Below, piece by piece: positions 8,090 to 63,290 of a stretch of 64,000 bases of DNA. A program made the translations under genes and the position numbers. The stretch comes from Norana najaformis (lineage: Eukaryota; Annelida; Clitellata; Crassiclitellata; Hormogastridae): NCBI GenBank assembly GCA_964023275.1, contig OZ029913.1, positions 41,239,757 to 41,303,756 on the forward strand. Direction: 5' to 3'. Below the pieces are notes generated by a model that saw nothing but the letters and a program-made list of their open reading frames with translations, did no database searches and was not told the origin of the DNA. Position 1 is the stretch's first letter, and the number at the start of each line of letters is the position of its first letter.

Positions 8090-8375
8090 TGCAGAACTTA
8101 ATGAATTTTATGGTAATTTTTTGTGCATTCAACTGAGGCCAGTGAATTCTCAGGTCATTTATGAGCGCTCAGCTAAGACCAGTGAATTCTCTGGTCATTT
8201 ATGAGCATTCAGCTAATACTACTGAATTCTCTGTTCATTTGTGAGTACTCAACCAAGGCCAATGTATTTATTCTCTGGTAATTTTTGAGCATTCAGTGGA
8301 GTCCATTGAATTCTCTGGTGATTTATAAGCATTCAGCTAAGACCAGGGAATTCTCTGATTGTTTATGAGCATTAA
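8090..8375. repeat. 40-bp degenerate minisatellite, left part
   Basis: Units of about 40 bp built on GAGCATTCAGCTAAGACC then AGTGAATTCTCTGGTCATTT repeat at least six times. The array resumes at 11001 on the far side of an inserted DNA transposon. The last unit here stops at GAGCAT plus TAA. Confidence 0.85.
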
Positions 8376-8387
8376 CACTGGCCAACA
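8376..8387. repeat. Left terminal inverted repeat of transposon
   Basis: CACTGGCCAACA, exact reverse complement of 10989-11000, preceded by the target duplication TAA. Confidence 0.9.
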
Positions 8388-8691
8388 CATAATTTGTTGC
8401 CTCAAATGTTAGAACTGTTTCTGGGTATATTTGACCTGCTGATTCCAGAAAAGGCACCAGTTTTCTCCCAGCAGGTCTAGTTTTCGAGATATAGAACATT
8501 ATGCCATATACCAGTCCTTGCCTCTGCTCGCCCATAAAACATAAGGCTATAGATATAATTATGTAGTGCTCAATTTATTATGTGATACACTAAATAAACA
8601 TAATAATACAAATACTTAAAAGAAAATGGTAGTACCTGAAACTGTACTTATATGATACCAAACAGAACAAGTTTGTTATAAAAATTTCAAG

Positions 8692-10395
8692 TCATTCGAC
8701 ACCGAAGAAGCTCCTTTTGTACGATTTCCGAGTGTGGCATCTGCCGGAACAATCGCGCATAATATTCCAGCAATAGTCTGCCATCATGTGTGCATCCCAT
8801 CTTCCTTGATATCGATTTTCCATTGTTTTGATGTCTTGGTGAAATCTTTCACCTTGCTCTTCGCTGAAGTCACCAAGATTCTCTGGAAAGCGATCTAAGT
8901 GACTGTGGAGATAATGGACTTTAATGCTCATGTTGCAGCCAAGCTTGTTGAAATGAAGAAGCATATCCTCTACTAGTTGTGCATAATTGTCTGCCTTCTT
9001 GTTGCCAAGAAAATTTTTAGTTACAAGAACAAAGGAAGACCAGGCACAAGATTCGATTTCATTCATTGATGGTATGAAAAGTGGGTCATTCATAAGTTGC
9101 CTGATCTGTGGACCATCGAAGATTCCAGCCTTCAATTTTTCCATTGTAATTCCTGGTAACTTGTGTACTATGTATTCGAAGCATGAACCTTCTTTATTCA
9201 AAGCCCTGACAAATTGTTTCATCAGGCCTAGCTTTATATGTAGTGGTGGCAGTATGATCCTATCTCGTGCCACCAAAGATTCCTTGATTACATTTTGAGC
9301 TCCAACCACCATGTCTTTCCTCGAAGGCCAATCTTTTCTTGTCCAATGTTCATGCTTGGCTCTACTGTCCCAAAGACACAAAAAGCAGGGATACTTTGTG
9401 TAGCCACTTTGTTGACCAAGGAGGAAATTTACCATCTTCAAGTCTACACAAATTACCCATTGATGTTCTTTGTATTTTATCTTTTCCAGTACTAAAGAGA
9501 TGGCATTGTACTCTTCTTTCATCCTGGTGGAGTGACCGATTGGAATAGAACCAAATTTGTTGCCGTTATTTAAAAGCACACATTTCAGACTACGTTTTGA
9601 ACTGTCGATAAAAAGACGCCACTCATCTGGGCTGTAATCCGACAGACCAATTTTCTTCAATAAGTTGCTGATGTCATTACAGAATACTAGGTTGTTGTCT
9701 TCGGTAAAGAATGGCAGCAAATCCTTTTCTCTGTTTCTATAAATTGTAATTTTCGTTCCAGGCTGAAGTGCATTCTTTTCCTTTAGTCTGGACGCAAGCA
9801 ATTCAGAGGACTCTTTGGAAAGATTTAAGTCCCTGATCAGATCACTCAACTCTTTTTGGTCAAAACGTTCACTGTATGAAGTTGATTGGAAATCACTGTC
9901 ACTGCCCCCACTTTCTTCACTTTCGTCATCTTGTCCGATATTGGACATGCAAGTCTCATCGTCTGAGAGCTGAGGTAGTTCGCGAAAAGGTGGAACTGGT
10001 ACAATATCCGAATGCGGAACAGGTCTCCTGGCTGAAGGTATATCAGGGTAAGACAACTTGTGACGATTATTTCGATTGATGCCTATGATATTAACCATAC
10101 AAAAGTAACAGTCGTCGAAGTGGTTTATCTGTTCCCTCCAAACCATCGGTACACCAAATTTCAGGCAGCTTCTCTTTCCAATTGTCCAGTGGCGCAATTG
10201 TTCAATACAAGTTTTGCATACTGTATGAGGAGCCCATTGCTTATCTTGATCTCCAAGTTTGACACCAAAATAACCTACATATGCTCTTTTTACAAACTCA
10301 GAAATCGGTTTCCTGTTTGCTTTTAGTGTGTATTCCCCACAAATGTAGCAGAATATGTCTGGATGGTTAATGCAGCTCCGTCTGGAAGTAGCCAT
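8692..10395 (-). CDS. DDE-type transposase-like protein, 567 aa, intronless
   Basis: This is the only gene of the CACTG transposon, open from the ATG at 10395 to the TGA at 8692-8694 with no break. The N-terminal region carries paired cysteines (CYIC at 16-19, CKTC at 60-63, CYFC at 96-99), likely zinc-binding DNA-recognition modules. Residues 144-170 are an acidic Ser/Asp/Glu linker. The core looks like an RNase H fold: a strand with Asp264 (LFIDSS), a second with Asp318 (WVICVDLK), then a CxxC (PCFLC, 337-340), a PLH motif (His386), and a late acidic helix with EEQGERFHQ (512-520). The order D-D-CxxC-LH-E is that described for CACTA/Mirage/Chapaev-group transposases, which cut and paste DNA in the nucleus. 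I recall similar multi-copy uncharacterised proteins in invertebrate genomes but cannot verify this here. Which residues are catalytic is inference; the link to transposition rests mainly on the flanking inverted repeats. Confidence 0.85.
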   Translation of the reverse strand: MATSRRSCINHPDIFCYICGEYTLKANRKPISEFVKRAYVGYFGVKLGDQDKQWAPHTVCKTCIEQLRHWTIGKRSCLKFGVPMVWREQINHFDDCYFCMVNIIGINRNNRHKLSYPDIPSARRPVPHSDIVPVPPFRELPQLSDDETCMSNIGQDDESEESGGSDSDFQSTSYSERFDQKELSDLIRDLNLSKESSELLASRLKEKNALQPGTKITIYRNREKDLLPFFTEDNNLVFCNDISNLLKKIGLSDYSPDEWRLFIDSSKRSLKCVLLNNGNKFGSIPIGHSTRMKEEYNAISLVLEKIKYKEHQWVICVDLKMVNFLLGQQSGYTKYPCFLCLWDSRAKHEHWTRKDWPSRKDMVVGAQNVIKESLVARDRIILPPLHIKLGLMKQFVRALNKEGSCFEYIVHKLPGITMEKLKAGIFDGPQIRQLMNDPLFIPSMNEIESCAWSSFVLVTKNFLGNKKADNYAQLVEDMLLHFNKLGCNMSIKVHYLHSHLDRFPENLGDFSEEQGERFHQDIKTMENRYQGRWDAHMMADYCWNIMRDCSGRCHTRKSYKRSFFGVE

Positions 10396-10988
10396 AACCT
10401 TAAGGATGTTCGCATCTGAGGAATTAAATGACTAACCTAAAAAATAGTAAGAACATGTAGTTATTTAATGCTCACATTCACAGATTGTTCTTGCGACCAA
10501 CTCTTAATATGCCCTAAGACGACTGCGGCTGCTCTAGCTTTCAGGAGGCGGTTTATATAGGCTATAAATGCTGACTTCAGCATAATCTATTTACATAGTT
10601 CGAAACCATGAAACGCTGTATAAGCACAAATAAATTCTAAATGAGGCCATGAATTTAGTGCTGAGTAAGCTGTAGGCTACGGAATAGTTATTTCGTTGAA
10701 TCAGCAATATCTCAGCACGCGGCAAGATATGCTGATTTTACATTATAAGGATGTAGGCATTATATGAATCAGCAAGAATTATAATTAGCCATAAATAAAG
10801 CTTATTATGACATTTTAGTTTTGCCAAAGACATCGTTTAAAGAGTGGACTGGGTTTTCTTTACAAAATCGACGATATCTCAGAAACTAGACCTGATGCAC
10901 TCAATCCAATGACATTTTCTGAATCAGCGCCCAAAATTACCCCAAGAACAGGTCTAAAACCGAAGGCAACAAGATAAAAAAAATTTTC

Positions 10989-11000
10989 TGTTGGCCAGTG
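10989..11000. repeat. Right terminal inverted repeat of transposon
   Basis: TGTTGGCCAGTG, exact reverse complement of the left end, followed by TAA. Confidence 0.9.
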
Positions 11001-11600
11001 TAAGCTAAGACCAGGGAATTTTCTGTTCATTTGTGAACACTCAATCAAGGCCAATGAATTCTCTGGTAATTTTTGAGCATTCAATGTCAGAGTCCAGTGA
11101 ATTTTGTGTTTTATAGTCATTTTTGAGCATTCAAATGTAATCATTGAATTCTCTGGTATTTTTTATTCAACCAAGTTTAGTGAAGTCTCACATCTTTTGA
11201 ACATTAAAATGGACCAGTAAATTTGATGGTAATTTTTGGTCATTCAGCTAAGACCATTGCATTCTTTGGTAATTTTGGAGCATTCAGCCAAGACCTGTGA
11301 ATTCTCTGATGATTTTAATCTTCAACCAGAACCTATATGTTGTCAAATTGCTTATGAGCATTCATCCGAGACTAGTGAACTTTCAAGTCATTTTTGTGTA
11401 TTCAACTAAAATCAGTGAATTCTGTAGTGTTTTTTGGGCATTCAACCAAGACCAGTGAATCCTCTGACAATTTTATCATTCAACCAAACCCAGTTTCTTT
11501 TCGTAGTGTTTGTGAGCATTGAGCCAAGGATAAATGGATTATAAATGATCATTCAAGCCAGTCCATTCAGATGTTGAAATTTTGAAGGAGCATTCAGCCA
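11001..11600. repeat. 40-bp degenerate minisatellite, right part
   Basis: Continuation of the array at 8090-8375: units with GAGCATTCA, CAAGACCAGTGAATTCTCTG and GGTAATTTTT, increasingly diverged towards 11600. Confidence 0.85.
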
Positions 11601-24764: not shown

Positions 24765-25205
24765 ATACGGGACAATCTACACTGGCTTCCCATTCAGCAG
24801 CGTATCCAGTTCAAGATCCTAACGCTTATGCGTAATTGTCTCGTTGGCTCTGCTCCATCATATCTTAGGGACTTCTGCATTTCGATCTCCTTGGTTCCAG
24901 ACCGTAGCACTTTCCGGTCGGCCTCCCTTGGACTTCTGACTGTCCCTCGTATGCGCACTGCTACAGCGCAGTCTAGAAGCTTTGCCTATGTTGGACCCAA
25001 TAGCTGGAATCGCCTTTCCCGAGAGCTCCGGCCAGTATTCCTCAGTTTGTCTCTTCCGCAGTTTTGCAAGCGCCTGAAGTCTGTATTATTTGCCAGTGGT
25101 CTCACTGGTTCGGGTCGGGAGCGCTTCTGATGAGTCTATTCTTGAAGTGGCGCTTTATAAATGTCAGATTACAATTACATACATACATACATACATACAT
25201 ACACA
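24765..25205 (+). mobile_element. LINE C-terminal fragment with (CATA)n tail
   Basis: One frame encodes LHWLPIQQRI, FKILTLMRNCLVGSAPSYL, RTATAQSRSFAYVGPNSWN and FCKRLKSVLFA, closely related to the copy at 12600-13024. The 3' end GGCGCTTTATAAATGTCAGA is followed by ATTACA and a CATA microsatellite. It ends about 200 bp before the first coding exon of NR5A. Confidence 0.85.
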
Positions 25206-25407
25206 CAAACCACCAATGAGTGGATTTTTCTTCAGATGTGTTATATAAATTGGCCAATGCAATACAGTACAATACAGTGTAATAATTGTGGTCTGGTTTT
25301 CCATCTACAGAAGGAGGCACCCCTTCAGTTAAGGTCAGTTGTTGATAGGAATGTACTATCAGTGAGCGATTATCTTACTTTATGTTGGCTGTGTGTGTGT
25401 GTTTCAG

Positions 25408-25539
25408 TGTCTGTTGGAATGTGTGGCAAGGAAGACCTGAGTGTCTTCCTTGGACTTGGCACCGAGGATCGCTGCCCGGTCTGTGGAGACCACGTCTCTG
25501 GCTACCACTATGGTCTGCAGACCTGCGAAAGCTGTAAAG
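25408..25539 (+). CDS. ftz-f1: NR5A exon: start and first zinc finger
   Basis: Acceptor TTTCAG ends at 25407; donor GTATGT begins at 25540. The exon ends one base into the codon for Gly41 of CESCKG. Bases 25408-25418 would be 5' UTR if ATG 25419 is the start. Confidence 0.88.
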
Positions 25540-28241
25540 GTATGTTGGAGAAATTTAGGACTTTTACATTACATTGCATTTTGCCCTCTTTCTCAAATCC
25601 TGTGAAGAATAAATCAGCAGTTACCTTACCTTACAGTCTTTACCTAACCTTATCTTACATTAGGCAAGATTACTGATGCAGTTGGTTTTCACCTGATGTT
25701 GTGGCTCCTGCTGATATAAGAAAGATGATGAAGAGCAGTCCCTAAGATCAACCCCAAGAGTCAGTCATGTGTAAGAAGTGTTAGCGAAGTCCTTCATTTT
25801 TTGGCCTTTGCATATGAGAGTAGGTGGCCAGTTCTGTTAATTGTCATCTGATCTTCCCAGAGACTGTGTAGCGTCTGTGTACTCATTTTATGCAATTCCT
25901 GTATGATCATGTGCCTGTGATTAAATCCCTGGTCAAGTTTCTGTGATCAAGTTTCTATGATCGGATTCCTACATGATTGAATTCCTATGATCAGATTCCT
26001 TTGATCAAATTCCTTTGATCAAATTCTTTTTATTATAGTCCAATGATCCAGTTCCTGTAATCACATTCCTATGATGAAGTTCCTATAACTGAACTGCTGT
26101 TATCAAGTTCCTATGAACCATTTCCAATGATCAGATTCTTTTGATTATACTGCTATGATAAGTTCCTATAACTGAATTCCTATGATCAAGTTTCTGTGAT
26201 GAAATGCTTTTGTTAAAGGTATCTGATGATGAAGTGGTATTGCAATGTGTTTCTGAAGGGTTCTTCAAGCGCACAGTTCAGAACAAGAAAGTCTACACAT
26301 GCGCTGACACAAGTAACTGTGTCATCAACAAGGCCCAGCGCAAGAATTGTCCATTCTGTCGCTTTCGAAAGTGCCTTGATGTTGGCATGAAGATCGAAGG
26401 TTGGATCATGTCTCTCAGCTGACAAGTTCTGACATTTTTATTATGGTTAACTGCCAAAGAACATAAATTATCCAATGTTTTGTTAATGTTTAAAATGCAT
26501 TTAAGCTCTGAGATGAAATTTTAATAATGCTATGTGGATGTCCATATGCAGGATATTGAGAAACAAAGAATTTTCAATTTAATAAATTTCAGAAGAATGG
26601 ATTTGAGTTCGACTAATTATACGCCTTAAACTGATCTACTGGCAACTTTCTGTATTATTAAATACAATCCATATAAATTCATTGTCATTAAGATTAATTT
26701 TGCTAATTTTTCTATTCATTTTCTTTTTCTTTTTATTTAAACTATGATTCTGTTAACTAAGGAGTTATTTGCATTAACTTGCTGGTTTGGCATATTTCTG
26801 TCAACAATAATGTCAGCTAAGAGCAGACTCACTCACAAATGTAAACTGTCTGGTGCCCAAGCACAGTTACTTTTGCCTGCTGCCAGACAGTTTTGTCTAA
26901 GTATTTCAAAAGTTCACAATAATGTCTTACTAAATCCACAGTGACTGTGCTTGATTACCAGACATTGATGTTTGTGAGTGTTCTGTCTACATTTGCTGGG
27001 GCTGGGGCAGAGAGCATTTCCAAATAGATATTTTGAGAGAGTGTTATATAAATGCTTAGAATGAATGAATGTATTAGTGTCTGCTGTTTTGAGACATTAT
27101 TTTTAAGGAGTAGAATTGAGCCTAAAATTTTGTAATACACTTCAGCGGTTCGTGAAAATCGAGTCCGTGGTGGCCGGAACAAGTTTGGTCCAATGTACAA
27201 GTATCATCGTGCTCTGAAGCTTCAAGCAGAGAGATACCGCCAGCAGGTCCTGATGCAGATTGGAACCGCCTTTCTCCAGAGTCCCTACAGCGCTGATATC
27301 GTTAGGCGATTCTGTTCTCCAGAGCACAAGACAGAAGTGGAACCTATGATGCCACGGTTAACTGCTTCACGGCACCAGACATGGCATCCCGGTGCATTCA
27401 GCCATGACCAGACCCACAGCAGAATGATTCCGTCAGAGCTGCACAGCCAGCAGTATGATGGTTTCGGTCGAATTGAGTTGTTCGGTCCGATGCGAGAGGA
27501 AGACTTGAGACAGATGCCTGAAGACTTTGATTTTGATGTTCATCGAAGGCAGAAACTGTCTCCACAGAAACCGATGCCAAACCTGGAACCGCTGAATCCC
27601 GTTCCACTTCGGCGAACTGCGACGGTTGGACATGACTATCCAGCATCACGGAAAGCAGTTCCGAATTCACTGGAAGCATTAGACGGTGCATATCGAAATC
27701 GTTCCTATTCGTATCCAAATCTGGAGACTTTTGCACAGGACATTGTCAGCTCAAAATGTCCACCAAGCGGTGATTCCTTTCCAAGTTCCGACCCAGACAA
27801 CGATGGTCTTACTATTCCAAAAATAGACCTCGATGAGATGGACTACACTGAAGAGAGTGGTGTTACTTGCTCGGACATGTCCCAGTCTGAGTCAGTGGAT
27901 CCAGTATCGGTCAAGATCCCAATTGCAGAGTTGATGGGCAGTGCTGCAGGCTATGAGGTCATCTGCAACAAGTTCCGAGCAGTGAGCGAAGTGATCCTCC
28001 TGGATTTCAAGGATGCCCTCGCTGGTCGCTGTGGTCAGCCTGGGTGGGTTGTGGGTGGTGAAGTGGCAGAAGAATTGCGTCCACTTTTTGTCGAGCTTCT
28101 TTGTCGACTGTGTGACCAGGCGCTGTTTCTGATGGTTGAATGGGTCAGGGCCGCACCGCTCTTCAAACAGCTTAAGGTGATCATATGATTCTTCTCATCT
28201 TCTTGCTTTGTGGTCAAGCAATTTTATTCATATTAACAAAG

Positions 28242-41489: not shown

Positions 41490-44400
41490 CTGAAGACACA
41501 ACGACAACACAACAAATACATGTTTCCGGAAGTCACAGTTATGACTCATTTTCAGTTTCATAGAGATCACGATGGTGATCCACTTTCTTAATTTCTTTTT
41601 AGTTAAGTTTTAGTTAAGACTTTCTTTTTAGTTCAATTGTACCTAATATCTGTTAAACATTTTTGTCGCCACATGCATCGTTTTGTAATAGGCGGCCCTA
41701 ATTTAGCGGGACTTAGGCCCCTGTTAAGTCTACCATTTGTATCCCAACAATCTACATAATGGTCAATGTATTTGTTCTTTTCTTTTGTTCTTTAGGAATC
41801 AATAAAGTTTTCATTCATTCATTCATATATTGAGAAATCCTTATCATAATCGTAGTCTCTAGATTTATTCAGACGCCAAGAAACCAAGTCGCGAGGGAAG
41901 CAGTTTATTCACAGGCGCTAAGACAAAAACCAAATCTGTAGGCAGGTAAGGTCATGGTCGGCTTCAGGTCGAGGTTCAAGGGTCAGTCTGGTAGACCGTC
42001 AGACCGTTAGGGTGGGTAGTGTTTATAGACAACTTTATAGATTAGACTGTACATGCAGCCAGATGTCTGAACTATTATGGTCTGATTTTATCTGATCTGA
42101 TCTTATCTAACTAATCTTAGCTAGTTATCCGGCCAATTAATATGACACCGTCTAAGCATCTCACAATAGCGCTACCTACTCTAGCTTAAAATATGTTAAT
42201 TTAAGATTTTCTGATCTCCTCTGATGTAATGTAATGTAATTTATTCTGATCTGAAATCAGGAGGAGGCAAGGAAAGTAAGACAGATGGCTAAATTAACTA
42301 AGAAACCCGAAGCAGTGAGTTCGGATTCGTGCACTGCAGACGGGGACGGGTAGAGAAATCGCGAAAAATGTCATCCGCTGATTGCAACACCGACGTTCAT
42401 TAGCGAACCACAGTAATCGAAGGAAACGACGATTGATCCTAGTTGGTCGCAAATGGCGGCATTCCGACTCCTGTAGCGACCTCTAGCGCTGCGTCTGATT
42501 AATATCGCAATGCATTTATTGCGCTCGTTGATCTCGCCGACCCCGATGGCGCGATCTAGTGGCCCAACGAGGAACTAAGAGATAAGTGTTTTACATGGAG
42601 TACGGTTAACTGATATGACTTCACAGAAAGAACCGACAGGAAGCGTTTTTTAATTTTCTTATTTTTTGCACAAATTCGTCGTTTTTAATAAACCAGTTAT
42701 CGAATTTACTATAATATTTTCAACGTCTGCTAATTTCAAACTTTCGTTCACTGACATAAGTTTTTGTTTCTCAATTGTATTCAGATTTATGCACTTTGAT
42801 CCTGACATCGATGTAGACGATTGAAGCCGCTGGTTAGAGGATTCACCCAGTGAGCCACCCTTCTCCACTCTCTAGGGTGTCATTCATAATTCTCATGTCA
42901 AACCTAACACGGCTGGCAATCTCGCAGGTTTTCTTGTGTTAGTGAGTCGTCCTCTGGCTGAAGTCCTTGCTCTCTCCTGATTATACGCCATGCCTTCACT
43001 TTAAAGCACACTTCGGTGTTTTCACGTTCTTCGGTGTTTCGGGTCAACTATGGCCGCATTGGCAACCTCCCCGAGAGCTGTCCTATGCCTCATTTCAGTG
43101 ACCAATCTTGCCTGCTGTTTATGCAATGTCTCCGTTCAGCTGTTTATGCAATGTTTCCGTTCAGCTGTTTATGCATTGTCTCCGTTCAGCTGTTTATGCA
43201 TTGTCTCCGTTCAGCTGTTTATGCATTGTCTCCTTTCAGCTGTTTATGCATTGTCTCCGTTCAGCTGTTTATGCATTGTCTCCGTTCAGCTGTTTATGCA
43301 TTGTCTCCGTTCAGCTTTTTATGCATTGTCTCCGTACCTATTGTTAGTCAGCCTCCTGTCTTTTGTTATTCTTGTTAACTTTTAAAGCATATTAAAGACG
43401 CTTTTCCTTCCTGTTCCCTGTTCTCGAAAGTTTTGCTGACTGCCGAACCGATTTTCTTCCAAGATTGGACTGTCTTGCAATTCAAAAAGTGGCGATGATC
43501 ATCTTTAAAATGTAATAGTATAAGACAGCATATTTAAAAGCAGTCAGTACCATTAACCACCATGCTTCTTGCTGGCGATACTGACCTGAACCCTGGCCCA
43601 TCGGCTTAGGGGCCTTACTACTGGTGAGGCAACTCAGGTAACGTTAGTGCTATTTTTCGCAAATATATTTTTGAAGGAAAGGTAAATCAGGTGAAGTATA
43701 TTCGTTGTCGTATATGCACCCATATTTTCAATATTTTAAGACACATAGTTAGAAGTAATAGATAAATGTATTTTACATTACCTTAACATTACATTATACC
43801 ACCTTACGCAATATTACTTTTATACTGCACCATGTTACATTAATATTACATTGCATTACATTATATGCGCTATTTTCATCAGTAAACCTCAGAGGTGGAT
43901 GTCTGGTTGTTAAATATTTCGGCTGAAGTGTATTTAAGAGAACAGCGCTCAAACAACCGTGGGCACCATCAAATTTCGGCAAGAGGGAGGTGGCAGTTGT
44001 TCCTTTCTGGAATTTGCAAATGAACATTTTTGGCTTCCATTATAAGAACGACGATAACGCCATCGTCGATGGTATAGCCGGGTTTCTTGTGTTGTCCTAG
44101 CGGCATAGATTTCTAGGGCTTACACAGAGAGATAAACAGAGATAAACAGAGAGAGAGAGAGGGATGGAGGGAGAGAGAAAAAACAGAAATAGAGAGCGAC
44201 GGAGAGACACAGACAGATAGACACGGAGAGGAAGAGGAAGAGAGTTGCTTAATAGTTTGTTGTTCTCCTTTCGGATGCGTTGCCTTAGGATCAAACTCTG
44301 TCTTCAACACGTTTTTAATTTGTTAGGAGGAACGCCGTAAAAAGTCAGCCATTGTAATATGGATGCTTAAGAAAGAAGAGGAGGAGGAGGATGATGAAGA

Positions 44401-53400: not shown

Positions 53401-56400
53401 AGAATAATATGGTCAGTGCTATTATTTAAAATATATTAATAATCTGATCGACTTAAAAGATTCTAATGCTGCATGAGAAAATGATACGACGGTTGATTGT
53501 AGTTTTCCGACCCATTACAGTAGCAGTAGTAAGCTGTCGTGTGTGACTTTGAAAGTTTGACTTACAAATGTCGTGCGATTGAATAGTTTGACTTAGGGCC
53601 TACAAATGTCGTGCGATTGAATAGTTTGACTTAGGGCCTACAAATGTCGTGCGATTGAATAGTTTGACTTAGGGCCTACAAATGTCGTGCGATTGAAAAG
53701 TTTGACTTAGGGCCTACAAATGTCGTGCGATTGATAAGTTTGACTTAGGGCCTACAAATGTCGTGCGATTGAATAGTTTGACTTAGGGCCTACAAATGTC
53801 GTGCGATTGAATAGTTTGACTTAGGGCCTACAAATGTCGTGCGATTGAAAAGTTTGACTTAGGGCCTACAAATGTCGTGCGATTGAAAAGTTTGACTTAG
53901 GGCCTACAAATGTCGTGCGATTGAATAGTTTGACTTAGGGCCTACAAATGTCGTGCGATTGAAAAGTTTCTGTTGTGATTGAACTGTTCGTTTAGTTAAA
54001 ATTTCGAAAATCAAAGACTTTGTGTCTTTACTCGAGTCAACACTTCGCTGCAAATCGGGCGAGTCGACTGTTCGAAGCCCGATCATTGACAATTACACGA
54101 AGTATACGAAAGATCCTCGACACATATATACCTAATATATATGTACATATACATACACGTGCAAATACACTGTGCTTATATACACATAGATATATTACAT
54201 GTACATGTATATAATAGTATATTCCATTTCTCGTATAAATAAATAAGAGAAATCGGGCAGTAGTTGATGCGCAGTGGCTTGGCGTACTTCGAACCCCAAA
54301 CCTTAGAAGACGTTGAGTGTATATAAGCAGTCGCTCATCATACGCAGTAGCGTCTCCAAGGTTTCCAGCGCACGCCAACTTCATTACGTCTTCCTCTGTA
54401 CCGAGAAGAACTGATGAACTGATTCTTCCATCAAGGCCAAGCACCCCCCTTTTGCTCCTTCCTTTACCCCTCCCCGGTAGCACTTCAGCTTTTATTTTCT
54501 GCGTCAAAAGATCCCGCCTGAGAGGCTCCAAAATGTGCTACCGAAACGCTCTGTTACAATATGAATCAAAAGAAATTAGCCACTTCTTGAAAAAGCAATG
54601 AGATTGCCCTACCCTGCCTTTTCTTACTTTACATTACCTTACTTTACATTAACTCGTCTTAACTTTCCCTACCTTATCTCACTCTACCATATCCTTATCT
54701 ACCCTGCCCTACCTTATCTTAATCTACTTTACCTTGCCTTACATTACATTAACTTCTCTTACCTTAACCTACCATAACCCAATCTACCCTACCGTATCCT
54801 ACTATACCTGACTTCATCTTACCTTACCTTTCCGTGCCTCTGCTTACACAAGATTTGACCAGCTGATCCTATTGTTTGTTCCCGTAGAGTTCCTCTAATT
54901 TTCAGGCCTGGTTCAGTCACTTGGATCAGTCAAATCCAATGTAGTCATATTATGATCGAAAGAAAAACAAGCTACCAAAACATTTCTTACTTACTGTCAA
55001 TGCCCAATTGGTCCAGATTTCTCCTTCGCCTTCACGTAAATAGGAAGGCTATAAATTTATTAGGCTGATTAAAGCAGGTGAAGATTTACTTACTTATTTA
55101 CCCCTTGTGATCATTGCCAGTAAGTGGCACGCCATGAAACGAAACAATTTTTCTGTGAACAATTGGGGCGCTGCATAATTATTTTCCTCTTCTTGCTCGA
55201 CATTAGGAAGGAAGCAAGCAAACGAAAGCAAGCAAGAGAAAAAGAAAGGACAGAAAGAAAGAAAGAAAGAAGGAAGGAAGGAGGGAAGGAAGAAAGGAAA
55301 GAAGAAAGGATGGACAGCATAAAGAAAGAATGGAAGGAAAAAAGAAAGAATGGAAGGAAAGAATGACGGATAGAAGGAAAGATGAATGAATGGATAGATG
55401 GATGAATAGATGAATGGATGGATGAACGAATGAATGGTTAGAAACGCTGGAAAAAAGGAACAAAGAAAGGAGGAAAGAAACTAGGGAGAGAGGGGGAGAA
55501 TGGAGAGAGGAAGGGAGTGCATTTGATTGGTAAATAGTAAAGTGATCACTCAGATGGAAGGAAAAGAGCAGAAAATGGGAAATGGGAAAATCGAAGGAAG
55601 TACTTGGGAAGAAAGGACGGGGGACCGAGAAGAAGGACGAAGGAACAGATGCAAGGCCGACAAGGAGGAGGAGGAGGAGGAGGAGGAGGAGGAGAAGGAG
55701 GAGGGAAAGGAGGAGGAGAGGAAAAGGATGGAAAAACAGTCGGTATTCCGGAAGTGGATTCCGCTGATTTATCCATATCTTTCTTTGAAGTCAAAGCCGC
55801 CATCTTTTCCGGTTGCCCAAAGGAACCTCATCCCCAAACCGGAAGCCAATTGTAAGTTGCGGGACCAAAGACTCTTGATATGCATGACACGCGTCACGTC
55901 GCTCGCTACCCGAAGTCGTCCGATGAAGACGGGAAGTCATTAGCAAGCCGATCCTCCTGCCTTTAAACACTCCTCGTGCGTGACGACCGTCAAGAACGCC
56001 ACTCCCTGCCCTACTCACCCTCCCCGACCTTTTAGGAGTTGAAAGATGAAACCATGTAACCTTACTTCTGCAGGGGGCATTCTCATCGCGCAATCGCCCT
56101 CTCTTAAATTTACCCAAGGGTTGATCAGTCTATTTCAAGCATTAACCCAATTCGCATCACTGACTAAAGGGCAGTTCTCTAGAATTAGGACCGGCATTTT
56201 CTTGCCGTCCGATTTACTGCAGTCCTGAAAGAAGCAACACATTGAGACAACGGACAACAGTGAGTTTTATTTTCAAAACTCACAAAAGCATGAAACTAAT
56301 TTCTGTCTATCGTCGCTCCGTCGGCAGCTGTCTCAGTGATTGGCAATTACTAATTTTGTAATTAAATACCTTGATGTACTTTTTCTCAGTTTACCTGGCG

Positions 56401-56845: not shown

Positions 56846-59138
56846 CCGATGTTAAGAATGAGCAAATTGACATTCAGAGAGAATTTCTGCCTCTAGAGTT
56901 CTGAAGTTGACATCTGAGAGAGAGAGAAAGACAGAGACAGAGAAAGAGAGAGACAGGGAGAGACAGAGAGACAGAGACAGAAAGAGAGAGCAGACAGCTC
57001 GCAGAGAGAGAGAGCCAAAAAGATAGACAGGCAGACACAGGGCAGAGAGAGAGGCAGACAGACAGCAGAGAGCGTGAGAGAGAGACTGCTGTATCTACTG
57101 CTGCGGAGTCAAACTCCGTATTGTTTATAGACCCTACATCTCCATATTTATGAAATGCCATCTGAAAGTGCTGACGACGGCCACGCAATTCAAAGAACTA
57201 TCCCCTTGGCAAGGGTATTGTCCCCGAGCGAAGAATTAGGTCAGTTCGGCGAACTGGTTCAGTTAGCCGGCGAATCGAGACAGCTGGTGCCTGAGCGAGT
57301 TTTTAGCGCAAGAAACGAAAACTTTCTACCTCAGATTATCCATAAAGCAAATAGATCAACGCGATCAAAGGCGAGTGCCAGACTGGTAATTCGCTTTTCA
57401 TTCATCTCTGTGACAGGAATTCGAATCCCTATCCATCATGTCAGTTTGTATCGGGTCACGTAAACAAACTTTCGATATCGACGCCTCTACTGACAAATGT
57501 TGTGAGATCCAATTGATATTGTAATCGTAATCGTAATCCCGAGATTTCTACAGCGCCCAACAAAAAGCTAAGTTGCACAAACCAGCTTATTCAAAGGCGC
57601 TCAGTCAAAACAAATCGATAGATAGGGAGGGTTCGCTCCAGGTCAAGATTCAAGAGTCAGGCATGCAGGCAGAGAGTCAGACTGCTATAGTAGATGGTGT
57701 TTGGAACTGATACGGAAAGTGAGATAAGGAGAAGAGGAAGAATCAGGATAGGATCTGTGAAAGAGGAATATTTTCAGTTTTGAGTGAAAGACTTTCACAG
57801 ATATTACAAAGGATGAAGTGTTGGTTTCGTTATCATACCTCGCTTTACACAAAGAACACGAAACGATGGATCGTTCGACTGAACATTTTACTCCATTTTT
57901 CAGTCAGATACTTTTACTCGCTTAATTAACTGAATTCCAACCTGCAATTTTGATGGCATCAGTTGGCACCAAAAGGACAGAAGGCGTCAGTCGTTCAAAT
58001 TTGATCAAGTACTCTATCATTCGGATTTTTAGAAAATATTGGATGATTGATACGCTAACTCTATTTCTGACCCTACCATAACCCTAATTGCAACCTACTA
58101 AATCTAATCCCAATCTAACCCTGGCTTTAACTTTAATAACAATCCTAACTCCAATCCTAACCTTAATCTTAACCTTAATCCAAACAATAACCCAAATTCT
58201 AATCTAACCCTAAGCTTAAACTTAATTATAAAAACCAGTCTGTAACTCTGAAATTGAATTGCAGTGTAAGTTCGTGGCGTGTACTTACCCAGCATTTTGA
58301 TGACAGCTCTACAGGCGATCGTCTGATGCTGCATGCGAAGGTCCGACCACTGCGGTGCTTGACCTCCTGACCCGAACAGATCCGAGTAAGTCCTCGTCTG
58401 CGAAGATCGTCGAATGGCCGTCGCTATGCGTCCGTAGAGGGCGCTGATGACGACCATCGGCGCCAGGAAGAACAGGAACGTCGACACCTCGAACGCGTGC
58501 CGGATGTACCGATCCTCTCGGATGTTGCACGTCGCCGACTCCGGAAGCGGAAGTCCGCGCTCGTCGTAAAGGTAGACGACGCCATACTGAATATCGATGG
58601 GCACTGCGCAGACTCCAGCGACGACCCAGATGACGACGATGACACGTGCTGCCCTCTGGAGGCTACACTTGGTCTGAATCCACATCGGATGGCATATGGC
58701 TACGTAGCGTTCCACCGTGAAGGCCGTTATAGTGAGGATCGACGCGTAGGTCGAGGTCTCGGCGGCCACCGTCCGCAAGACACAGAAAGCCTCGCCGAAG
58801 ATCCACGGATAGGCCGACCAGAAGGTGTACGTCTCCAACGGAAGACCGAGAACGAGCAAAAGAAGGTCGGATAGGGCGAGATTGACGAGGTAGAAGTTGG
58901 TGGCCGTGTGCATATAGCGGTTGCGAGCGATGACGATGCACGTGCAGATGTTGCCAATGACGCCCGTTACCAGGACGACGAGATAGATGATTGTCATGGG
59001 AACGACGATCGACAAATCCTGGCGCCGCCTACCGAGCTTTTCGAGAAGCAGCGCCGAAATTGTTTGTGATGAAGAATTGAACTGTGAATGATTCATCGCC
59101 AGGCCAACCATCTCATCCTCCTCCAAAACATCATTCAT
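41101..59138 (-). CDS. Neuromedin U/pyrokinin/Capa-type peptide receptor, 412 aa, two exons
   Basis: This is a rhodopsin-class plasma-membrane receptor for PRXamide-like neuropeptides, usually Gq-coupled. Exon 1 is 59138-58289 and exon 2 is 41489-41101. The borders are G|GTAAGT and CTTCAG|TG in phase 1, and the join gives 1,239 nt without a stop. N-glycosylation sites Asn16 and Asn21 precede TM1 (Asn63 in GVIGNICT). TM2 has LALSDLL (Asp91); Cys119 and Cys204 should form the extracellular disulphide; TM3 ends ERY (143-145) in place of DRY, normal for this subfamily; Trp171 marks TM4; TM5 contains [10 protein letters not shown]6 ([14 protein letters not shown]) and TM7 ([10 protein letters not shown]) come from exon 2. 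The [18 protein letters not shown] and [16 protein letters not shown] blocks are characteristic of NMU/pyrokinin/Capa receptors. I cannot decide which ligand from sequence alone. The start has A at -3. The 16.8-kb intron carries many repeats. Confidence 0.9.
41600..41830 (+). mobile_element. Retroelement 3' tail with AATAAA and (CATT)n
   Basis: TTTTGTTCTTTAGGAATC is followed by AATAAAG and TTTTCATTCATTCATTCA, a poly-A-signal-plus-microsatellite end typical of LINE 3' UTRs. No coding part is visible, so the family is unknown. Confidence 0.45.
41860..42010 (-). mobile_element. LINE 3'-end copy, family B (antisense)
   Basis: CATAATCGTAGTCTCTAGAT, AGTTTATTCACAGGCGCTAA, GGTCGAGGTTCAAGGGTCAG align with other family B copies. 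Confidence 0.75.
42011..43115. other. No recognised gene within GPCR intron
   Basis: TCTGATCTGATCTTATC-like short repeats near 42085-42115. A 69-codon minus-strand frame at 42659-42868 has no known motif. Confidence 0.45.
43116..43340. repeat. 25-bp minisatellite
   Basis: The unit TGTTTATGCATTGTCTCCGT plus TCAGC is repeated about nine times with few changes. As 25 is not a multiple of three and the unit lacks stops, all three plus frames stay open. Confidence 0.92.
43341..44225. other. No recognised gene
   Basis: ACATTACATTA-type AT text at 43770-43865 and a GAGA-rich patch at 44125-44225. Nothing coding. Confidence 0.5.
44226..44330. repeat. 105-bp segment, copy 1 of 2
   Basis: GAGAGGAAGAGGAAGAGAGT through CACGTTTTTAATTTGTTAGG is repeated at 46232-46336 in the same orientation with only two differences. 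Confidence 0.9.
44331..45489. other. No recognised gene
   Basis: Purine-rich GAGGAAGAAG tract at 44370-44520; the rest is ordinary AT-rich DNA. Confidence 0.5.
45490..45735 (-). mobile_element. LINE 3'-end copy, family B variant (antisense)
   Basis: GTAATCGTAATCATAAAAC, AACCAGCTTATTCATGAGCG, CAGTGGGGTTGTCCAAAGAT, CTGGTTGCCAGGACACCAGA and GGTGGGTTGTGTTTAAGCTG show both 3' modules in inverse order of the sense copy at 36290. Confidence 0.75.
45780..47000 (-). mobile_element. LINE reverse-transcriptase half (CR1/L2-like, antisense)
   Basis: Minus-strand reading gives, in order and over several frames, [19 protein letters not shown] (YADD box near 46670), [46 protein letters not shown], and [20 protein letters not shown] 105-bp foreign segment (46232-46336) interrupts it between LDFKS and HSKLDYC. 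It is multiply broken and 5' truncated. Confidence 0.85.
46232..46336. repeat. 105-bp segment, copy 2 of 2, inside LINE
   Basis: Two mismatches in 105 bp against 44226-44330. It breaks the LINE reading described for this region. Confidence 0.9.
47170..47350 (+). mobile_element. SINE family A
   Basis: GATTTGAATCTCGGGCTAGG, CGGTCCGCACACGGATACC, GTCGAGACCCTACGGTTGCT and ACGTTTACATTTACAT tail; more diverged than the copy at 35905. Confidence 0.75.
47351..47600. other. Nothing recognised
   Basis: Ordinary DNA between a SINE and the MITE. Confidence 0.45.
47610..47970. mobile_element. hAT-type MITE, 361 bp, perfect 8-bp duplication
   Basis: It starts CAGGGCCGTTTAAGG and ends GATAAGACGGCCCTG, giving CAGGGCCGT/ACGGCCCTG inverted ends. 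CCCGGCAA flanks both sides (47602-47609 and 47971-47978), a perfect 8-bp target duplication. Internal CGTAGGCCCTAGGCAC motifs recur near both ends. There is no coding capacity. Confidence 0.9.
47979..49019. other. No gene; short duplications and TGAC/TGGC repeats
   Basis: AATTAGATAATCACTCATGC occurs twice about 50 bp apart (48157 and 48206). From 48630 to 48860 the text is an impure GACTGACTGGCTG array. Confidence 0.6.
49020..49440. repeat. Pyrimidine-rich TCC tract
   Basis: About 420 bp, almost all C and T on the plus strand, with TCCTCCTCC cores. Confidence 0.85.
49485..49545 (-). mobile_element. SINE family A tail (antisense)
   Basis: TCTATAGCGACCGTATGGTC followed by TCGACCCTGATCAGTTTCCA, the reverse of the family tail. 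Confidence 0.7.
49546..51229. other. No recognised gene within GPCR intron
   Basis: CTGT microsatellite patches at 49614-49680, 50427-50460 and 50515-50545, and a TCC-rich patch at 50830-50915. Open frames here follow composition. Confidence 0.5.
51230..51425. repeat. (GACA)/(CACACAGA) microsatellite
   Basis: Nearly 200 bp of GACAGACAG and CAGACACACAGA text. Confidence 0.9.
51545..51850 (+). mobile_element. SINE family C (tRNA-derived), near full length
   Basis: Pol III A-box-like TCTAGTGGTTAGCCTGCTGG and B-box-like GGGATTCAGATCCTCGC about 30 bases on. Body: GAGATTTCAGCTCCATTGGC, CTGACCGTATACTGTCAGTG, CATATGCCGAGGCCAAGAAA, CATGGCTGCCTC. This copy is the best guide to the family. Confidence 0.85.
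51851..53555. other. No recognised gene
   Basis: CCATCCATC/CCGTCCGTCC microsatellite at 52930-53050. ACACTGCAAAAATAAAATCT at 53220 resembles an element end (compare the MITE end at 2648) but I find no partner. Confidence 0.45.
53561..53968. repeat. 38-bp minisatellite, 11 copies
   Basis: Eleven near-identical copies of a unit starting ACAAATGTCGTGCGATTGAA and continuing TAGTTTGACTTAGGGCCT. The main variant is GAATAG versus GAAAAG or GATAAG. High uniformity implies recent expansion or homogenisation. Confidence 0.95.
53969..54600. other. No recognised gene
   Basis: ATATACATGTACAT text near 54120-54220. Frames of up to 164 codons (minus, 54037-54531) show no domain. Confidence 0.45.
54605..54840. 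repeat. CTTAC/ACCTTA degenerate repeat
   Basis: ACCTTACCTTA and CATTACCTTAC variants recur throughout, like the tract at 7560-7760. Confidence 0.8.
54841..55200. other. Nothing recognised
   Basis: Ordinary DNA between two low-complexity tracts. Confidence 0.45.
55205..55735. repeat. Purine-rich tract (GAAA, GGAA, GATG, GGA)
   Basis: A long polypurine-biased stretch: GAAAGAAAG (55240-55280), GGAAGGAAG, GATGAATGG (55380-55440), and (GGA)n at 55668-55710. Confidence 0.85.
55736..56429. other. No recognised gene
   Basis: More complex sequence than its neighbours but with no domain I recognise. Confidence 0.4.
56430..56768. repeat. TAGAATGACATT degenerate repeat
   Basis: AGAATGACAT, AGAATGAAGT and AAAATGACGT variants recur at 12-15-bp spacing from 56430 up to the (GA)n. 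Confidence 0.85.
56773..56842. repeat. (GA)n microsatellite
   Basis: About 35 uninterrupted GA units. Confidence 0.97.
56910..57090. repeat. GAGACAGA-rich tract
   Basis: Impure GAGAGACAGAGA text following the pure (GA)n. Confidence 0.8.
57091..57514. other. Unrecognised 102-codon open frame
   Basis: A plus-strand frame (57155-57463) has balanced composition but no domain I know. It lies in the GPCR intron on the opposite strand and has no splice support. Confidence 0.35.
57515..57800 (-). mobile_element. LINE 3' end, family B (antisense)
   Basis: The minus strand reads [18 protein letters not shown] (decayed C-terminus), then the family 3' region and GGGCGCTGTAGAAATCTCGG with (GATTAC)n tail (57518-57542). 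It is the most complete small copy. Confidence 0.85.
58060..58240. repeat. CTAACCCTAA-like degenerate repeat
   Basis: CTAACCCTGG, CCTAACTCCAATCC and CCTTAATCTTAACC-type hexamer-like units, just inside the GPCR intron next to exon 1. Too irregular for telomere. Confidence 0.75.
58289..59138 (-). CDS. GPCR exon 1: N-terminus to intracellular loop 3
   Basis: 850 nt from ATG (59136-59138) to donor G|GTAAGT (intron begins 58288). It encodes TM1-TM5 and most of loop 3, ending [11 protein letters not shown], directly before the VAVVVAF start of TM6. Confidence 0.92.
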
Positions 59139-62159: not shown

Positions 62160-63290
62160 CTACACAGAGCTACACAGAACTACACAGAGCTACACAGAAC
62201 TACACAGAGCTGCACAGAGCTACACAGAGCTACACAGAGCTACACAGAACTACACAGAGCTACACAGAACTACACAGAGCTACACAGAGCTACACAGAAC
62301 TACACAGAACTACACAGAACTACACAGAGCTACACAGAGCTACACAGAGCTACACAGAGCTACACAGAGCTACACAGAACTACACAGAGCTGCACAGAGC
62401 TACACAGAGCTACACAGAACTACACAGAGCTGCACAGAACTACACAGAGCTACACAGAGCTACACAGAACTACACAGAACTACACAGAACTACACAGAGC
62501 TACACAGAGCTACACAGAGCTACACAGAGCTACACAGAGCTACACAGAGCTACACAGAACTACACAGAGCTGCACAGAGCTACACAGAGCTACACAGAAC
62601 TACACAGAGCTGCACAGAACTACACAGAGCTACACAGAGCTACACAGAACTACACAGAGCTACACAGAACTACACAGAGCTGCACAGAGCTACACAGAGC
62701 TACACAGAACTACACAGAGCTACACAGAGCTACACAGAGCTACACAGAGCTACACAGAGCTACACAGAGCTACACAGAACTACACAGAGCTGCACAGAGC
62801 TACACAGAGCTACACAGAACTACACAGAGCTGCACAGAACTACACAGAGCTACACAGAGCTACACAGAACTACACAGAACTACACAGAACTACACAGTAC
62901 TACACAGAGCTGCACAGAGCTACACAGAGCTACACAGAGCTACACAGAGCTACACAGAGCTACACAGAGCTACACAGAGCTACACAGAACTACACAGAGC
63001 TACACAGAGCTACACAGAGCTACACAGAGCTACACAGAGCTACACAGAGCTACACAGAGCTACACAGAGCTACACAGAGCTACACAGAGCTACACAGAGC
63101 TACACAGAGCTACACAGAGCTACACAGAGCTACACAGAGCTACACAGAGCTACACAGAGCTACACAGAGCTACACAGAGCTACACAGAGCTACACAGAGC
63201 TACACAGAGCTACACAGAGCTACACAGAACTACACAGAGCTACACAGAGCTACACAGAACTACACAGAACTACACAGAACTACACAGAAC
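62160..63290. repeat. 10-bp satellite, about 113 copies, with higher-order repeats
   Basis: The unit TACACAGAGC and variants TACACAGAAC, TGCACAGAGC and TGCACAGAAC tile 1.13 kb in perfect 10-bp register. The variant order repeats as a block of about 15-18 units at 62341, 62521 and 62741. From about 63000 to 63220 the array is almost all the first variant. No unit contains a stop in any plus frame. Confidence 0.97.

Follow-up and report, generated by a model that had tools for sequence, protein, structure and literature searches.

Chapaev-type DNA transposons are related to the transposon that was ancestral to V(D)J recombination. In the printed descriptions of the Chapaev3 elements Garfield, Merrow and Conan, insertion creates a 3-bp TWA duplication between an A and a T, the ends read CAC/GTG, and the transposase, in most cases encoded by a single exon, carries the motifs C(2)C, LH and H(4)H (PMC4079192). 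Chapaev3 is also placed in a broad clade together with Transib and RAG1 in a passage of PMC4411706. Here we analyze an element of 2,625 bp at positions 8376-11000 of a 64,000-nucleotide stretch of the genome of the annelid Norana najaformis (contig OZ029913.1, positions 41,239,757 to 41,303,756; the window). With a probability of about 0.9, we regard it as a complete, apparently autonomous Chapaev3-type (CMC group) cut-and-paste transposon of a recently expanded family of about 1,400 copies. It represents a new family of a known kind, placed by the published descriptions of Chapaev3. Literature searches, in which Repbase was not among the sources, found no published name for the family, and a search combining earthworm and Chapaev found nothing related.

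The locus resembles the printed Chapaev3 elements in its CAC/GTG ends, its 3-bp TWA duplications between A and T, the presence of C(2)C, LH and H(4)H together with a DDE set in the transposase, a single-exon transposase of about 560 amino acids, and a similar size, 2,289-2,455 bp being printed for three relatives and 2,625 bp measured here (PMC4079192). It differs in copy number: for the lamprey Merrow elements more than 249 and more than 254 copies are given, compared with about 1,400 end counts here, under differing counting rules (PMC4079192).

A sequence-only reading of the window had proposed a complete 2.6-kb CACTG-ended element with a TAA duplication, about 130 bp of subterminal inverted similarity and a 567-codon frame, and all of these parts were confirmed (Table 1). 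The perfect 12-bp inverted ends are the sole exact matches of this 12-mer within the window. When up to two mismatches were allowed, 10 matches were obtained compared with a mean of 4.9 in shuffled sequence; a bare 12-mer is therefore not proof of an end, and the proof lies in the pairing and in the copies. Aligned locally, the outermost 128 bp of the left side and the reversed 138 bp of the right side scored 96, which none of 298 random window pairs reached (largest control 41), and still 71 when the first 24 bp were omitted. The same reading held that the empty site could be recovered from the flanking 40-bp repeat. When the two flanks were joined with a single TAA between them and searched against the genome itself, query bases 1-159 of 162 aligned at 84% with adjoining array units at 8136-8298. 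Because the joined flanks align through the junction, the 40-bp register is kept across the element-free site, and the empty site is indeed recoverable.

Table 1. Positions of the element, its parts and its flanks in the window (TSD, target site duplication; TIR, terminal inverted repeat; TRF, Tandem Repeats Finder; ORF, open reading frame)
Feature	Position	Strand	Basis
40-bp tandem array, left flank	8102..8372		TRF 8102-8373, period 40, 6.7 copies
TSD TAA, left copy	8373..8375		sequence
Left TIR CACTGGCCAACA	8376..8387	+	sequence
Left terminal and subterminal inverted similarity, 128 bp	8376..8503	+	score 96, 0/298 controls
Transposase gene, 567 codons, single open frame	8692..10395	-	ORF list, predicted fold
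Right terminal and subterminal inverted similarity, 138 bp	10863..11000	-	local alignment
Right TIR	10989..11000	-	sequence
TSD TAA, right copy	11001..11003		sequence
40-bp array continuing, right flank	11004..11528		TRF 11212-11316, 11358-11494, 11274-11528 and joined-flank matches

Copies were sought in the same assembly (608,420,607 bases, 17 contigs). When no more than one mismatch was allowed, a 24-mer of the 5' end matched 752 + 645 = 1,397 times, its reversed control not at all; a 17-mer of the 3' end matched 650 + 794 = 1,444 times (reversed control 0 + 1). This 17-mer replaced an earlier 3' pattern (755 matches) that covers sites variable among copies. The family thus comprises about 1,400 copies. 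By arithmetic, at 2.6 kb each these amount to some 3.7 Mb and make up 0.6% of the genome, an estimate that leaves more diverged ends uncounted and counts truncated copies in full. In a search with the whole element the best 40 of 1,003 candidates were all full length, one of them being the window copy. These 40, picked by similarity, constitute sample A (the window copy and L009-L047). Sample B was taken from contig C1 and comprises the 40 exact 5' ends that come first there (L048-L087), with no selection by similarity or length other than the exact 24-mer. Here 28 of 40 copies were full length in a single aligned piece, eight were without the 3' end, three had internal losses (L058, L059, L077) and one had an altered 3' terminus (L057).

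Identical 3-bp flanks were present at 57 of the 68 full-length copies of both samples (30/40 in A, 27/28 in B). TAA and TTA occurred 20 times each, TAT and ATA three times, TGA, TTG and AAA twice, and five others once; 40 of the 57 duplications conform to TWA. The preceding base was A in 49/57 and the following base T in 53/57, a strong preference rather than the "always" printed for Chapaev3, and one that the window copy does not follow. Eleven copies were without a 3-bp duplication, L022 having a 5-bp and L033 a 4-bp repeat. Such misses are commoner in sample A (10/40) than in sample B (1/28).

The transposase frame starts with ATG, and in a list of frames of at least 80 codons no other frame within the element exceeds 103 codons. 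Structure prediction yields a RAG1/Transib-type fold over residues ~175-560 (about 350-370 residues) at 10-15% identity, in line with the clade described in part of PMC4411706. Sequence searches against solved structures returned nothing useful. Among 56 copies, C337-x2-C340, L385-H386, H494-x4-H499 and D264, D318 and E513 or E516 are conserved in 55-56. The three acidic positions are the candidate catalytic residues, and C337, C340, H494 and H499 would form a C2H2 zinc site; the role of each residue is putative. Chapaev3 transposases have a Chapa zinc domain at the N-terminus. Here the N-terminal part is cysteine-rich, with paired cysteines at 16/19, 60/63 and 96/99; zf-AD matched weakly in 26/56 copies and RAG1_imp_bd in 1/56 (E 0.011).

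The RAG1 core and Transib (HzTransib) share with the element the predicted fold, CACTG-type ends and the C-x2-C plus H-x4-H zinc arrangement, which raises the question whether it is a Transib or RAG-type transposon proper and not a Chapaev3. Identity is low, however, the N-terminal part is different, and the RAG2 partner of the RAG1 system is absent. Transib duplicates 5 bp of its target, as does the RAG1 system, whereas a 5-bp duplication was seen at 1/68 copies of the present family and a 3-bp duplication at 57/68. Moreover, the combination of C(2)C, LH and H(4)H with a TWA target is the one printed for Chapaev3 (PMC4079192). We therefore consider a Transib or RAG-type origin unlikely.

Among 120 of 2,100 proteins listed, the named relatives of the transposase include those of a firefly, a seed beetle, a dung beetle, Hydra and a lizard (61-69% identity). 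The closest protein among those listed, P0001, differs from the window copy at 18/567 residues, compared with 1-10 residues in 54 open copies of the own genome. Horizontal transfer is possible. A viral carrier was considered and rejected, as none of 54 pattern matches in viral contigs encodes a relative of the transposase. Another relative, P0096, is filed under a Pseudomonadota metagenome bin and is probably eukaryote contamination of that bin.

The 28 full-length copies of sample B were compared with their per-column majority. They differ from it by 6-19 substitutions (mean 12.5, 0.47%), and the window copy by four. Of the 259 variants in these 28 copies, 219 are confined to a single copy and 28 to a pair of copies; the remaining 12 recur in at least three copies, and seven of them in 5-10 copies each. 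This is a star-like spectrum that includes some sublineages. An uninterrupted 567-codon frame is retained by 18/40 copies of sample B (L055, not among them, reads 572) and by 36/39 of sample A, the window copy left out. Private changes within the frame of the 28 copies comprise 97 replacement, 40 silent and 7 stop changes, the neutral expectation being 72.5, 23.2 and 4.4%; no purifying selection was seen in these private changes. Since the changes among copies fit neutral decay, the open frames are due to youth alone. These data document a recent burst followed by independent neutral decay of the copies, that is, recent amplification and not present activity. The sequence-only reading had looked for many near-identical copies sharing ends and 3-bp duplications. 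They were found, with common boundaries except in a minority that has lost an end.

The undamaged frame, which had been taken as a sign of recent movement, is no independent evidence for it, as open frames are to be expected in young copies that decay neutrally. A few loci lie in duplicated segments (L066/L067 and L059/L060), and the seven variants common to 5-10 of the 28 copies indicate some substructure. These two points might be read as signs of an old and inactive family that gene conversion has kept uniform or that assembly error makes look so. However, when the flanks of 79 copies were compared with one another, 17 pairs proved similar, mostly over short stretches at 77-96%, target duplications are intact in 27/28 unselected full-length copies, and conversion would share variants, whereas 219/259 are private. 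An old family is thus very unlikely, and a recent burst is retained. PIF/Harbinger elements have a 3-bp TWA duplication. Membership in that group, which is described with a 3-bp duplication in part of PMC2213677, would fit the mostly TWA duplications found here, but it has next to no probability given the CACTG ends, the absence of any Harbinger transposase Pfam model in the transposase at E up to 1, the shortness of the element's other frames and a predicted fold matching RAG1 and Transib.

With regard to the duplicated loci, L059 and L060 have an identical right flank of 177 bp. Because both flanks of L066 (C1:7783645-7786545) and L067 (C1:7808432-7811332) are about 99% alike, the two represent a duplicated segment carrying the element. 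Next to L059, C1:4020208-4027302 contains four same-strand 3' ends at steps of about 2.3-2.4 kb, which suggests a tandem chain of element copies.

The first 100 exact 5' ends on C1 were matched with exact 3' ends of like orientation lying up to 6 kb away; 75 had such a partner and 25 had none. Seventy pairs lay at 2,565-2,635 bp, three were shortened (1,884, 2,321 and 2,374 bp) and two longer (4,836 and 4,995 bp); one 5' end was also paired with a second 3' end at 4,956 bp. Non-autonomous amplification as a main feature was dismissed on the few shortened pairs, exact-end pairing being blind to short elements with different ends. Conversely, that stretch contains 99 exact 3' ends, of which 23 were without an exact 5' partner. 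Seven of the 25 unpaired copies are whole or almost whole, their terminal bases being changed (L057, L072, L088, L101, L103, L105, L107), 11 break between element positions 2413 and 2606 (L052, L055, L056, L062, L068, L075, L089, L090, L100, L139, L145), and in seven the break lies deeper or is not resolved. The 3' end has therefore been lost in 11-18 of 100 sampled copies, and internal deletions are few. The concentration of 11/18 breaks in the last 212 bp has a binomial probability of 2e-8 under uniform breaks, with the 212-bp limit chosen after seeing the data.

In five of these 11 copies the left flank, ending at the intact junction, is repeated directly after the break, over 7 bp (L075), 9 bp (L052), 15 bp (L055), 22 bp (L089) and 62 bp (L145). 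One to six bases are common to element and flank at these breaks. In a control with the left flanks of other copies the longest suffix match was 7 bp; under a looser control for any shared word, 7/39 other flanks equaled L075 and 1/39 equaled L052. The evidence for a flank repeat is thus weak for the 7-bp case, modest for the 9-bp case and strong for those of 15, 22 and 62 bp. The other six copies show no such repeat. Two of them, L056 and L062, sit in flank repeats that are 82-83% alike and hence probably older than the insertion.

Loss restricted to the 3' side was initially entertained and was dropped, because the 5' end is lost as well. On contig C2, 20 copies were chosen by an exact 3' 21-mer, a copy known before being passed over. 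Of these, 16 extend to the 5' end or to within 3 bp of it, among them L123, which has a small gap inside the element, and three show no element at the expected place. L124 begins at element position 73 and, as read from the sequence, carries a flank repeat of 20 bp, of which a 2-base match is part. Three unpaired 3' ends inspected on C1 start at position 14, at position 2, and in one case are complete. At L149/L150 (C1:908971-911805), a copy starting at element position 14 is followed, just beyond its 3' end, by 14 bp of the 5' end in inverted orientation, flanked on either side by TTA.

The cleavage chemistry and cut-and-paste route that we propose would be as follows. The transposase would bind the CACTG ends and the subterminal repeats, excise the element and insert it at a target cut with a 3-bp stagger, A-TWA-T sites being preferred, so that the TWA duplications arise. 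The family expanded recently to its present size, with most sampled copies full length, and afterwards its copies decayed neutrally and independently of one another. For the lost ends we tentatively suggest, at somewhat less than even odds, that the RAG-like transposase often cuts one end only, followed by trimming of the broken end in the subterminal region, in some cases copying of flank from an empty homologue by the other chromosome side, and joining of the two at a match of 1-6 bp. If true, one-end cutting would yield copies truncated at one end with flank duplications of 7-62 bp instead of the internal deletions that are usual among DNA transposons, and would explain why end-truncated copies are many and internally deleted ones few. 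The lost ends may alternatively stem from abortive gap repair after full excision. In the part of PMC8277862 on gap filling, matches of 1-36 bp at the break points are reported, and excision-driven breaks are expected near element ends. A flank repeat of 62 bp is hard to derive from a 3-bp staggered cut alone. If breaks by a RAG-like transposase are involved, copies with a single lost end may record their repair in the germ line. The near-identical open-frame copies offer a natural source for a working Chapaev3 transposase; literature searches of limited depth, which are no proof of absence, turned up no Chapaev3 transposase tested in cells. For an element of a kind already known, the family goes somewhat beyond the routine in its copy number, in how many of its copies are full length and in its class of copies with lost ends.

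Elsewhere in the window, 58104-59138 (minus strand) is an exon of a pyrokinin/neuromedin-U-type G-protein coupled receptor, as judged by named relatives. Its best-scoring proteins have 92% identity, and the best named ones are from the annelids Ridgeia and Owenia at 58%; the mollusc Haliotis also reaches 58%, over less of the query. Open frames at 25161-28188 (plus strand) resemble parts of a nuclear receptor gene, and their zinc-finger text is one that we take to be of the nuclear receptor type. A 10-bp minisatellite of 113 copies (94% match) at 62160-63288 lies inside a 424-codon repetitive open frame, and uniform minisatellites are found at 53563-53969 (38 bp x 10.7, 98%) and 43114-43335 (25 bp x 8.9, 96%).
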